Assembly (NCBI RefSeq): GCF_003148625.1
Contig: NZ_QGGO01000003.1
Location: forward strand, 1-64,000
Length of the DNA: 64,000 nt
Direction: 5' to 3'
DNA from: Arcicella aurantiaca
GTDB lineage: Bacteria > Bacteroidota > Bacteroidia > Cytophagales > Spirosomataceae
Below are positions 12,921 through 42,527 of the stretch, piece by piece. The position numbers and the translations under genes were made by a program. Numbering within the stretch: the first letter of the stretch is position 1; the number at the start of each line of letters is the position of its first letter. The notes beneath the pieces are model-generated. The model had not been told where the DNA came from. It saw only the letters and a program-made list of their open reading frames with translations, and did not search any database.

Positions 12921-13748
12921 TCAATAATCATAATCTAATCCCAACACATTTTTCAACTCAATCAATGCTGGATTTTTCTCTGCTAAAAATCTGAATTTAT
13001 CTGCTTGAGTATAAATCAAACTTTGGTTTTCTTGTTCCATTACAGTAGTTTCTAATTGTACTTTTGAGTTTTGAAGCGATTTCCGTAAATAGGTAATCAT
13101 TTCATTTCTCAACGTTCCAGAAACTTTCTCTAATTGAATTTCATTATCTACTTCCAAATGAATAACAGTTCCTTTTAATGTAAACTTTCGATTGAAAATT
13201 ACATATTCTGTCATTCGGTTTTCCATTTGCAAATCACTCGTAAATCTATTCCAAGCGGTTTGTAATTCATCAAAAGAAAACACTTTGTCTTGCTGAATGA
13301 CCGGCTCTTGTACACGAACTACCTCCTGAGCAACCTCTTGTTGAGCCAACGGTTTCCCAATGGTTGAGGTACTTCTCAATTTCCCAATATTGGCAATTGG
13401 AGGAATTGTTACTGGTAATTGGTTATTGGTTACTGGGGATTGGTTATTGGTTACTGGTAATTGGTTATTGGTTACTGGGGATTGGTTATTGGTTACTGGT
13501 AATTGGTAATTGGTTACTGGTAATTGGTAATTGGTTACTGGTAATTGGTTATTGGTTACTGGTAATTGGTTATTGGTTACTGGGGATTGGTTACTGCTAA
13601 CTGCTAACTGATTACTGTTTACTGCTAACTGATTACTGTTTACTGCTACCTGCTCCCTGTCAACTACTTTCCCACGCCATCGCCCTCCGTGGCGGGTAAT
13701 GTCGCTAAATTTAATACATGGGCAATATTTGCCATTTTCAACAGACAA
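12921..13748 (-). CDS. dnaX: DnaX tau-specific C-terminal part, read in the -1 frame
   Basis: This frame holds the second half of DnaX. The first codons overlap the end of the gamma frame by 85 bases. A linker of reiterated heptapeptides (PVTNNQL and variants, 13406-13648) is followed by a folded region (FDELQTAWNRFTSDLQ, VIFNRKFTLKGTVIHLEV, LRNEMITYLRKSLQNSKVQLE, FRFLAEKNPALIELKNVLGL) that fits the C-terminal domain of the Bacteroidota clamp-loader subunit. Entry is by a -1 slip at GGGAAAG (13667-13673); the joined product would be about 630 residues and is the only way this domain is translated as part of DnaX. An internal start is possible but unsupported. An accidental frameshift mutation or base error is the main alternative. 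Confidence 0.75.
   Translation of the reverse strand: MSVENGKYCPCIKFSDITRHGGRWRGKVVDREQVAVNSNQLAVNSNQLAVSSNQSPVTNNQLPVTNNQLPVTNYQLPVTNYQLPVTNNQSPVTNNQLPVTNNQSPVTNNQLPVTIPPIANIGKLRSTSTIGKPLAQQEVAQEVVRVQEPVIQQDKVFSFDELQTAWNRFTSDLQMENRMTEYVIFNRKFTLKGTVIHLEVDNEIQLEKVSGTLRNEMITYLRKSLQNSKVQLETTVMEQENQSLIYTQADKFRFLAEKNPALIELKNVLGLDYDY
13406..13648. repeat. 21-bp tandem repeat encoding the heptapeptide linker of DnaX tau
   Basis: About eleven 21-base units run through this stretch. On the plus strand the main unit is a permutation of TTACTGGTAATTGGTTATTGG. It encodes PVTNNQL, PVTNYQL or PVTNNQS in eight consecutive heptads, with three more diverged units (AVNSNQL, AVSSNQS) at the 5' side of the coding strand. 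Unit length divisible by three means copy-number change keeps the frame. The words CAGTTAGCAGTAAACAGTAA resemble the TAACTGATAACTG arrays at 18.1 and 19.7 kb. Confidence 0.85.
13664..13688 (-). promoter_or_regulatory. dnaX: candidate programmed -1 frameshift site in dnaX
   Basis: In the gamma frame the codons read GTG GGA AAG TAG. The heptamer G GGA AAG (13667-13673) has the X XXY YYZ form needed for a -1 slip and is followed at once by the stop. After slipping, the frame reads GTA and continues into the tau part. A Shine-Dalgarno-like GGAGGG (13683-13688) ends 9 bases upstream. E. coli dnaX has a similar layout (A AAA AAG with an upstream SD-like element), and phage lambda G/GT uses the same GGGAAAG heptamer. 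No strong downstream hairpin was seen. Confidence 0.65.
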
Positions 13749-17198: not shown

Positions 17199-18131
17199 AT
17201 GAGTAAAATTTTAGTTTTGGCAGGAGGTTCTGTCAAGGGAGCATATCAGGCGGGTGTTGTTAGAGCAGTTTTTGAATCAGGTTTTCGTCCAGACGCTATC
17301 TATGGAATATCAGCAGGGAGTATGAATGCTTCTTACTTGGTTAATGATTTTGGTTCACAGTTTATGAATAATAATGGAAGTGTGGATTATGCCCAAAGTT
17401 CGATTGACCTTTGTGATTTTTGGATTAACAATATCAATACACCTGATAGCCTTGCCCTCAGAAGAGGAACTTATGATTTAGGAATGAGTGCAATTCGTAG
17501 AAATTTTGAGGGATTATTGGATACTACGCCCTTACGAGAAATTCTTCATAACAATATTCATCTAAGAAACCTCAATGCCAGCCCGATACAGTTGAAAGTG
17601 GGAGCGGTGGATATTATTAATGGGAGTATTGTTTATGCTGACCCTACCTACGAGCATTTTTTAGACTATGTGATGGCATCGTCGGCTATTCCGATTTTGA
17701 TGCCTGTTGTTAATATTGGAGGATTACGAAAAATGGCTTTTCTGGATGGCGGTATGCGTGATGTTGCTCCAATTAAAAAAGCAATTTTAGACGGAGCTAC
17801 TGAAATTATTTGTATTGCTTGCCATACCAGAAATATTGACGGTGGATATTTTCCGTATGGAAACCTCTTGGCATTAGTTGACCGTGTGATGGATATTGCC
17901 GTAAATGAATGTCTTAATGCAGATTTGGATTGGGCGGAATTCAGAAATGAATGTTTACCAACGGATGGCTCGGAAGGAGAATTTGGAATATTAAAAGGGC
18001 AGAAAAGAATTAATCTAAAAATCATTCGTCCTCATAAAACTTTAAATATCGATATTCAAGATTTTGATAAAGAAGATATTCAACGATTAATTTTCTTGGG
18101 TTATCAGCAAGGGAGGGAGGAAATGAAATAA
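17199..18131 (+). CDS. patatin-like phospholipase
   Basis: Patatin-family lipid acyl hydrolase of 310 residues using a Ser-Asp dyad. The oxyanion segment is LAGGSVKGAYQAG (residues 7-19), the nucleophile elbow is GISAGS with Ser38, and the second catalytic residue is Asp183 in FLDGGMRD. The N-terminus starts directly with the first beta strand (MSKILVLAGG), and there is no signal peptide, so it is likely cytoplasmic or peripheral to the membrane. The natural lipid substrate is unknown. Its stop codon TAA overlaps the first CAGTTATCAG word of the following repeat array. Confidence 0.87.
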   Translation: MSKILVLAGGSVKGAYQAGVVRAVFESGFRPDAIYGISAGSMNASYLVNDFGSQFMNNNGSVDYAQSSIDLCDFWINNINTPDSLALRRGTYDLGMSAIRRNFEGLLDTTPLREILHNNIHLRNLNASPIQLKVGAVDIINGSIVYADPTYEHFLDYVMASSAIPILMPVVNIGGLRKMAFLDGGMRDVAPIKKAILDGATEIICIACHTRNIDGGYFPYGNLLALVDRVMDIAVNECLNADLDWAEFRNECLPTDGSEGEFGILKGQKRINLKIIRPHKTLNIDIQDFDKEDIQRLIFLGYQQGREEMK

Positions 18132-18294
18132 CAGTTATCAGTTATCAGTTATCAGTAAACAGTTATCAGTTAACAGTTAACAGTAACCGAAAATAAAAAA
18201 GTATTAAAAAAGCCAGTTAAGGAACTAACAATTCCAAAACTGGCTTTTTTACTGATAACTGATAACTGATAACTGATAACTGATAACTGATAAC
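18130..18294. repeat. CAGTTATCAGTT / AACTGATAACTG inverted word arrays around a terminator
   Basis: Direct CAGTTATCAGTTATCAG words (18130-18185) are mirrored by TAACTGATAACTGATAAC words (18251-18294). In the centre the arms AAAAAAGCCAGTT (18206-18218) and AACTGGCTTTTTT (18238-18250) make a classic terminator hairpin. The right-hand array continues beyond the IS at 19690-19742, so before IS insertion it formed one longer array. Confidence 0.85.
18206..18250. terminator. terminator hairpin between patatin and frr genes
   Basis: Arms of 13 bases, AAAAAAGCCAGTT and AACTGGCTTTTTT, are perfectly complementary with a 19-base loop and give a U-run on either strand. It probably ended patatin transcripts, and frr transcripts from the other side before the IS arrived. 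Confidence 0.8.
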
Positions 18295-18347
18295 TGTCCC
18301 GTCCTGACCTAAGTTGACCAAATTTTGAACCTAAAACGTATCAAAAG

Positions 18348-18719
18348 ATGGACAAAACCAAGAACACAGGTCAAAAATTTATTCGCCATTTTAGCGAAGA
18401 ATTCAAACGGCAAAAAGTAAAAGAACTTGATGCCAAAGTGCTGAGTATTTCCGATATTGTGAGATTATATGAGGTTTCATCCGTAAGCGTGTGTCGCTGG
18501 CGTAAGAAATACTCAGTTCACTATCAACAAGCCACCCGAGTGGTTGTCGAAATGGAATCAGAAGCTCAAAAGACCAAAGAACTCTTAGCACGTAATGCTG
18601 AATTAGAGCGTATCGTAGGGCAAAAACAAATGTCCATTGATTTTTTAGAAAAACTCCTTGAAATTGCTTCCAAGGAATTAAAGATGGATATAAAAAAAAG
18701 TTTTTCTATCCCACCTTAG
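18348..18719 (+). CDS. IS3-family transposase OrfA
   Basis: A 123-residue OrfA with an N-terminal helix-turn-helix (FKRQKVKELDAKVLSISDIV, then RLYEVSSVSVCRWRKKY) that binds the IS ends, followed by a leucine-zipper-like coiled coil (ELLARNAELERIVGQKQMSIDFLEKLLEIA). The stop lies 24 bases before the first start candidate of orfB. Near its end, eight A bases (18692-18699) provide an A AAA AAA slippery site; a -1 slip gives the continuous sequence KFFYPTLDYFRINRNVLSIR leading into OrfB, the normal way IS3 elements make the OrfAB transposase. Confidence 0.9.
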   Translation: MDKTKNTGQKFIRHFSEEFKRQKVKELDAKVLSISDIVRLYEVSSVSVCRWRKKYSVHYQQATRVVVEMESEAQKTKELLARNAELERIVGQKQMSIDFLEKLLEIASKELKMDIKKSFSIPP

Positions 18720-18742
18720 ACTATTTTAGGATTAATCGCAAT

Positions 18743-19645
18743 GTGTTGTCAATCCGATTAAGAGAACTTTATCAGATACTTGGTCTGAGTAAGCAAGCTC
18801 ATCATCAACATCAAATACAACACATTAAACAATCCTGTGATATTGAAAAGATTTTACAGGAAGTAGTTATTTTGAGAATAAATCATCCCGTGATGGGACT
18901 CAAAAAACTCTATCATAAGCTCAAATACAAACCCTTTGGTAGGGATAAATTTATTGCCATAGGAGTAGAAACTGGATTGAGTATTCCCAGACCTAAAAAC
19001 TATCAAAGAACAACGTTTTCAACGAAAAGTAACCGTTATCAGAATCTTTTAGTAGGGATAGAATTAGATGATATTGACCAACTTTGGGTTAGTGACATTA
19101 CTTACTTTTGGGTCAATAATCGTTTCTATTATATTACTTTGATTATGGATGTATATTCTCGTAAAATTGTAGGCTATTGTGGGGCTTCTACTTTGGAAGC
19201 ATCCGCTAATATGGAAGCCCTTACAATGGCACTAAAAATGCGTAAAAAGAAAACATTTGAAAACCTGATTCATCATTCAGACAAAGGTACTCAATACGTT
19301 TACAAAGACTATGTAGAGTTACTGGAAAGTCGAAAAATAAGAATCAGTATGTGTAATGTGGTCTATGAAAATACGCACAGTGAACGTTTAAATGGCATTA
19401 TCAAAAATGAGTATCTCAGGCATCGTTCTATCAATAGTTTGGCAGATTTGAAAAGGCATCTTGCCAAAGATATTGAACTTTATAATCAAGATAGACCACA
19501 TGATAATCTCAACAAAATGAGTCCCCATGAGTTTGAAAATTATTTACAAAATGTACCAAAAAAGCAAAGAGTAAAAATGAATATTTACGTTGATGAAAGG
19601 ACAATTAATAAACAGAAATTTGGACAACAACTTGTACTTTTCTAA
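18743..19645 (+). CDS. IS3-family transposase OrfB (DDE catalytic part)
   Basis: OrfB of 300 residues counted from GTG 18743, but probably made as an OrfAB fusion with the frame open from about 18699. The N-terminal part has the HTH_21-like HPVMGLKKLYHKLK segment. The integrase core carries the DDE residues: Asp in LWVSDITYF, Asp in LIHHSDKGTQYV, and Glu in NTHSERLNGIIKNEYL. The C-terminus shows the usual YNQDRPHDNLNKMSPHEFE. All parts appear intact, so the element may be active. No near neighbour shows a second copy within the window. Confidence 0.92.
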   Translation: MLSIRLRELYQILGLSKQAHHQHQIQHIKQSCDIEKILQEVVILRINHPVMGLKKLYHKLKYKPFGRDKFIAIGVETGLSIPRPKNYQRTTFSTKSNRYQNLLVGIELDDIDQLWVSDITYFWVNNRFYYITLIMDVYSRKIVGYCGASTLEASANMEALTMALKMRKKKTFENLIHHSDKGTQYVYKDYVELLESRKIRISMCNVVYENTHSERLNGIIKNEYLRHRSINSLADLKRHLAKDIELYNQDRPHDNLNKMSPHEFENYLQNVPKKQRVKMNIYVDERTINKQKFGQQLVLF

Positions 19646-19689
19646 GTTTACAAGTAAACAAAAAAGTCAACCTATTTCAGGACGGGACA

Positions 19690-19742
19690 AACTGATAACT
19701 GATAACTGATAACTGATAACTGATAACTGATAACTGATAACT
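19690..19742. repeat. continuation of the TAACTGATAACTG array right of the IS
   Basis: Seven-base TAACTGA words repeat up to the frr stop codon (complement of CTA at 19741-19743). The array is the severed right part of that at 18251-18294. Confidence 0.85.
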
Positions 19743-42433: not shown

Positions 42434-42527
42434 ATTAGGGGTTAGGGTTTAGGGGTTGGGGATTAGGGACAAAAGCTAAATACTCACTTTGCTAACCCCT
42501 AAAACCTAATCCCTAAAACCTAAAATA
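42434..42527. repeat. TTTAGGGGTTAGGG palindrome between carbamoyltransferase gene and argB
   Basis: ATTAGGGGTTAGGGTTTAGG words (42434-42468) are mirrored by CTAACCCCTAAAACCTAATC words (42492-42525). The arm reaches into the end of the carbamoyltransferase gene and supplies its TTT-TAG end. Confidence 0.8.

Follow-up and report, generated by a model that had tools for sequence, protein, structure and literature searches.

A probable programmed −1 ribosomal frameshift in dnaX of Arcicella aurantiaca, with tau as the product of the slip

Introduction

Is the dnaX gene of Arcicella aurantiaca broken, or is a ribosomal slip needed for its longer product? In the window (the whole stretch of DNA analysed, 64,000 nucleotides of contig NZ_QGGO01000003.1), the frame coding for the gamma form closes at a stop codon, and the part proper to tau lies in another frame. 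The initial annotation of the sequence proposed that tau is made by a −1 frameshift at the heptamer GGGAAAG, with the stop directly behind it. The same heptamer is used by phage lambda G/GT. Here, we analysed the junction in the window, in the genus and in a wider set of Bacteroidia, and we compared it with the frameshift systems already described.

Results

The dnaX gene lies in two frames

The features of the junction are collected in Table 1. The NCBIfam model NF011531 (DnaX, 614 positions) spans the junction, matching the gamma open reading frame (ORF) with 754 bits (cut-off 685) and the tau-frame ORF with 97 bits; gamma is also matched by TIGR02397, with 432.6 bits. On these profile matches, the pair of ORFs is the DnaX clamp-loader subunit. 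The Pfam search of the tau part named no domain. Searching the genome for a second dnaX gave none: one match was full and the other three were partial (E 1.5e-10 or worse).

Gamma starts at an ATG (14812-14810), with a TTG two codons 5' of it, and its 3' end on the minus strand reads ACG-GAG-GGC-GAT-GGC-GTG-GGA-AAG-TAG, in which GTG GGA AAG TAG occupies 13675-13664. The tau frame is exactly −1 to it and is entered at the last G of AAG, for a total length of 630 aa. The two frames, the X XXY YYZ form of the heptamer, the GGAGGG nine bases upstream of it and the sizes of about 382 and 630 residues are thus as first annotated.

Table 1. Features of the dnaX junction in the window
Feature	Position	Strand	Basis or remark
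dnaX zero frame, gamma, 382 aa	14812..13664	minus	NF011531 positions 1-364; TIGR02397
Tau part, −1 frame, 248 codons and stop, first codons GTA GTT	13667..12921	minus	NF011531 positions 359-613
Candidate slippery heptamer G GGA AAG	13673..13667	minus	X XXY YYZ phase
TAG stop of gamma, directly 3' of the heptamer	13666..13664	minus	TAG in 8/8 distinct reversed sequences
GGAGGG, Shine-Dalgarno-like, 9-nt spacer to the heptamer	13688..13683	minus	Conserved spacing and codon-choice test
Possible upstream hairpin around GGAGGG, weak	13696..13672	minus	34-nt fold, z −2.04
Array of 7/21-bp units coding the tau linker	13654..13408	minus	Open in the tau frame only

The combination of GGAGGG and GGGAAAG separated by 5 to 13 nt has a single occurrence in the 64-kb window and none in 100 shuffles; by itself, GGGAAAG is about as frequent as expected (6 sites vs 6.9). 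Two other candidates were rejected. UAG is not a rare stop, as TAG closes 17 of the window's 51 long ORFs, and CGCCACGGAGGGCGATGGC is not a dispersed repeat, having a single copy in the genome even when two mismatches are allowed.

The break is conserved in the genus

The search of the genus covered eight genomes and found nine full dnaX copies. The same break at GGGAAAGTAGTT, with GGAGGG 9 nt upstream, is present in eight of the nine copies, from seven of the eight genomes, and tau is at −1 wherever its part is readable among these eight (hereafter, the reversed copies). In genome G003, the tau part is found on a second contig (L031), which overlaps the junction. Over the stretch compared, the copy of an Arcicella MAG (L054) does not differ from L012, one of the copies of genome G004. 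The heptamer is identical and in phase in all eight distinct reversed sequences, as well as in seven relatives in which tau is the default product.

A sequencing or assembly error in a gene that truly has one frame has to be considered, since runs of G and A are common places for errors and the assemblies of the group are drafts; with the same bases, and the same stop behind the heptamer, in eight distinct sequences from seven genomes, we regard it as close to impossible. The relatives, in which the initial annotation suggested looking for a continuous frame, do not refute the proposal of a −1 shift that would make tau, as the break is conserved with the same bases; in the genus, a single copy, L011, has tau in the zero frame, and it keeps both the heptamer and GGAGG.

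Another possibility is that the C-terminal part of tau is a separate protein, made by re-initiation behind the TAG. In three of the eight sequences, a tau-frame ATG, GTG or TTG lies 17 nt past the stop; however, the other five, including that of the window, have none within 60 nt 5' or 90 nt 3' of it, and the presence of the heptamer and its phase would require a separate reason. We consider re-initiation highly improbable.

The tau part appears to be under selection

Between 13667 and 13400, a stretch that takes in the linker array of tau, stops are absent from the tau frame; the other two frames have 15 and 11. For the C-terminal part, the dN/dS among the reversed sequences ranged from 0.05 to 0.13 in the six measurable pairs of eight (two were saturated), ratios that are rough because five of these six pairs have synonymous distances close to 1 or higher. 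The low dN/dS and the absence of stops in the tau frame of the array indicate that tau is most likely translated, and subjected to purifying selection beyond the break. The opposite reading, that tau is dead or dispensable and gamma is the sole product, agrees with the proper stop that ends the zero frame; yet it has very little probability given those ratios, an array open in the tau frame only, and a tau frame open at −1 in all eight reversed rows with readable tau (seven loci and the fragment L031).

The array could make tau phase-variable, since adding or losing a single unit would disrupt tau and leave gamma intact. Tandem arrays of 7-bp units (ACTGATA and its relatives) are found at 13408-13654, 18129-18184, 18251-18296 and 19690-19742, and there are 14-bp units at 42434-42523. 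Counted with overlaps, the exact 21-mer made of three ACTGATA units matches 80 times in this genome; of the genus mates, three have 27, 18 and 14 matches and four have none. Between two of the 7-mer arrays lies an IS3-like element (18295-19689; family assigned by eye), with ends TGTCCCGTCCTGA and TCAGGACGGGACA and two transposase ORFs (18348-18719 and 18743-19645), the first of which ends just past an A8G run, a likely slip site.

The product requiring the slip differs among relatives

Outside the reversed copies, the signal is found with tau in the zero frame. This is the case of L011 (genome G001), in the same genus, and of six copies from two neighbouring genera (L032-L037; five from g11 and one from g12), all with the same heptamer and GGAGG. 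In these seven copies, a stop closes the −1 frame 1 to 5 codons past the heptamer, as in Escherichia coli. Furthermore, L038 (genus g24) and 33 distinct sequences of the g2 group combine GGAGG with A AAA AAG, the heptamer of E. coli, and with a TGA in the −1 frame one codon later; loci of g2 do not differ from named Aquirufa records over the stretch compared. The arrangement with tau in the zero frame and gamma by slip is thus that of L011 and L032-L038. Considering all 41 heptamer sequences with tau as default, the −1 frame stops after exactly one codon in 38 (background rate 0.134) and within five codons in all 41 (background rate 0.364).

On the DNA tree of the gamma part, the eight reversed sequences form one clade (support 94/95, not starred), so one reversal suffices; on the protein tree, the reversed clade is not resolved. 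These sequences suggest that one genus reversed which dnaX product needs the slip, by an indel behind the heptamer that would be a net −1 or a net +2, both of which fit. The roles would have been swapped inside a single genus with the signal unchanged, and the unswapped member provides a natural control. The initial comparison with E. coli, the same principle with another heptamer, stands for the −1 slip and the Shine-Dalgarno (SD)-like element, whereas the roles are the opposite: in E. coli the slip makes gamma, here it would make tau.

The SD-like element and its codons

The family search gave a dnaX match in 213 of 222 genomes, and the loci were taken among the matches listed; the dnaX loci examined are best matches plus hand-chosen ones, and not a random sample. 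The 179 loci were reduced to 162 distinct sequences by dropping L031 (a contig fragment that carries the 3' half of the G003 gene) and merging 16 that are identical over the compared stretch, and L231, a 10-base filler region, was kept outside the scoring. A short phased heptamer (GGGAAAG or AAAAAAG) is present in 49 of the 162 sequences and a run of A7-A11 in 110; the remaining three (L068, L082 and L084) are without a slip site of the kinds sought.

All 49 heptamer sequences have GGAGG at one distance, its first base being exactly 15 nt upstream of the heptamer. Among the 110 sequences with an A-run, GGAGG lies 5 to 30 nt upstream of the run in eight, and at 15 nt in one. In the window, the 9-nt spacer falls within the range of 8-11 nt upstream at which an SD is stimulating according to PMC6321510.

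It could be argued that the slip is real and that GGAGGG is there merely as coding sequence, without stimulating anything. Indeed, the protein has Glu at the element in 49/49 heptamer sequences and Gly next to it in 43/49, the anti-SD is occluded in Bacteroidia (PMC9976891), and related sequences share history: on the tree, the comparison of SD presence with heptamer type offers only one or two independent contrasts with the A-run relatives, thus no power. The choice of codons argues in the other direction. The Glu codon is GAG in 49/49, although GAG makes up 27-33% of the Glu codons of these genes, and the preceding codon ends in G in 49/49 even if its residue varies (Thr, Val, Ala, Gln or Lys) and the codons used are 12-38% of those for their residue. 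Similarly, the first base of the heptamer is contributed, in the 15 sequences with G GGA AAG, by a codon for Val, Gly, Met, Leu or Ala that always ends in G. The G-ending codons and the choice of GAG point to selection on the RNA, and the distance is the same with two different heptamers, whose groups are separate in the tree. We conclude that GGAGGG probably acts as a stimulator of the slip, and that a purely coding role, though conceivable, is unlikely.

Regarding RNA structure, a possible, weak hairpin around GGAGGG (8 of 200 shuffles were as good) has a 5' arm that, by eye, is not conserved in L011. The downstream fold gave z 0.73 in the window and −0.15 in the E. coli control, and z fell below −2.5 in 4 of 18 sequences (eight reversed and ten others), namely L005, L009, L033 and L094. 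No conserved downstream stem-loop was found by this test, a weak one in which the E. coli control did not stand out either. The Rfam search returned two weak miRNA matches, far below the cut-offs, and no frameshift element.

As for the decoding machinery, the only tRNA-Lys anticodon found is UUU, in two copies, among 35 tRNA hits (150 of 567 candidates were scored, so CUU could be missed). The gene for bS21 is present in the same genome, and its prfB (L185, G000:C18) carries AGGAGGTATCTTTGAC, a standard SD-helped +1 frameshift site. A search of this assembly for the 16S family was negative, as was that for the 16S tail pattern in the eight genus genomes; hence, the anti-SD was taken from the literature.

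A-runs at the end of gamma in other Bacteroidia

The initial annotation held that dnaX of Bacteroidota is normally a single frame, and this did not stand up to a draw of 148 genomes of the phylum, in which 36 genomes besides that of the window belong to its class. Among the 146 with a dnaX match, the open frame is shorter than 480 aa in 45, one of which (G317) lies at a contig end. The 29 loci examined besides the window are the best 29 of the 146 and all belong to the same class, Bacteroidia. A run of A9-A11 is found at the end of gamma in 28 of them, and a run of A7 in the remaining one; nine of the 29 have a short frame, with a tau part of 192-232 codons in another frame (−1 in eight, +1 in one). 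A slip site at the end of gamma appears to be the rule in the Bacteroidia loci examined.

Of the 179 loci, 136 have tau in the zero frame, 35 at −1 and two at +1, and in six it could not be placed. The trait changed at least nine times on the tree, and the whole clade around Algoriphagus has tau at −1. Closely related A-run loci can also differ in the frame of tau (L074, L075, L166, L167 and L169; L167, with A8, is at +1): for instance, the two Siphonobacter loci have A10 with tau in frame (L074) and A9 with tau at −1 (L075). Single flips among A-run loci may in some cases be sequencing slips.

By analogy with Thermus, the A-runs would work by slippage of the RNA polymerase, and their wide spread suggests that they are the older state. 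The frame change in Arcicella might then be ascribed to the same process, as A9-A11 runs occupy the same place in most of the relatives examined; but neither the window nor the reversed relatives have a run of six or more A at the junction, and the GGG and AAA runs are short, so polymerase slippage is extremely improbable here.

Discussion

The sequences examined suggest that dnaX of Arcicella very probably contains a programmed −1 ribosomal frameshift with the usual roles reversed, in which the long form, tau, is apparently obtained only when the ribosome slips back by one base. Ribosomes would translate gamma and arrive at G GGA AAG with UAG next. A share of them would terminate there, releasing gamma, and the others would slip back by one base, the tRNAs on GGA and AAG re-pairing on GGG and AAA, after which decoding would resume with GTA GTT to give tau. 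The slip would be aided by the pairing of GGAGGG with the anti-SD of the 16S rRNA, and we guess that RF1 competes with it at UAG. The occurrence of the slip, its frequency, the action of the SD and the competition of RF1 are all inferred from sequence. In E. coli, G_GGA_AAG is highly prone to shifting, according to PMC5009743.

The involvement of the anti-SD deserves attention. In Bacteroidia it is occluded by bS21, bS18 and bS6 (PMC9976891); in spite of this, frameshifting in prfB concerns 523 of 726 Bacteroidia (PMC8710568). In Flavobacterium johnsoniae, the slipping at prfB is reportedly low (PMC12421855), which speaks against an efficient help from the SD. With the dnaX site, it can be tested directly whether the ribosomes of Bacteroidia, with their occluded anti-SD, are able to pair with an internal SD while elongating.

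Taken together, the data allow a joint reading that we consider neither probable nor improbable: the Arcicella group and Aquirufa would have traded an older poly-A slip, probably by the RNA polymerase, for an SD-driven ribosomal slip at fixed distance, and Arcicella would then have swapped the default and the slipped product by one small indel, keeping the signal. If this is true, dnaX joins prfB as a gene in which elongating Bacteroidia ribosomes use the occluded anti-SD, and in the unswapped relatives they do so at a site without a zero-frame stop codon. At a practical level, the dnaX of this genus may easily be annotated as broken.

Genes of this kind have been in print since 2013. Antonov et al. 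(PMC3711429) list 17 dnaX genes in which tau needs a frameshift, 12 of them with poly-A; the review by Atkins et al. of 2016 (PMC5009743) places tau by frameshift, with the gamma stop directly behind the site, in many fewer bacteria, and adds that, with a slip of about 50% efficiency, gamma and tau could exchange roles through a change of one nucleotide. Likewise, PMC4066793 mentions a limited number of bacteria in which the longer DnaX product is the one obtained by frameshifting. The literature search, on texts partly available, found no paper on dnaX of Arcicella or on dnaX with G_GGA_AAG. As far as these sources go, Arcicella represents a known type, in a new form and lineage.

With the reversed genes of PMC3711429 and PMC5009743, dnaX of Arcicella shares the two ORFs, the need of a frameshift for tau and a zero-frame stop of gamma directly behind the site. 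The difference lies in the signal: 12 of the 17 genes of PMC3711429 have poly-A, interpreted as transcriptional slippage, whereas Arcicella has a ribosomal heptamer and an SD-like element; one of the other five could be like that of Arcicella. The Thermus type, based on transcriptional slippage, has in common the gene, the place and the product pair, and the relatives with A-runs resemble it, but it needs a long run (about eight or more A) that is absent in the window and in the reversed relatives.

With E. coli dnaX, the site shares an X XXY YYZ heptamer ending in AAG, decoded by tRNA-Lys(UUU), and the distance of the SD-like element: counted from its first base to the heptamer, this is 15 nt for GGGAG and 14 nt for GGAG in E. 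coli, and also 15 nt for GGAGG in Arcicella. In E. coli, gamma is obtained by the slip, at A AAA AAG and with a downstream stem-loop, while in Arcicella it would be tau, at G GGA AAG, with no stem-loop found by our fold test.

Finally, the +1 frameshift of Bacteroidia prfB (PMC8710568) resembles the Arcicella site in that an SD-like element lies inside the gene and the slip takes place at a stop codon, again in a phylum whose anti-SD is occluded. There, the shift is +1, with a shorter spacing, UGA as the stop and feedback by RF2; in the dnaX of Arcicella it would be −1, at UAG.
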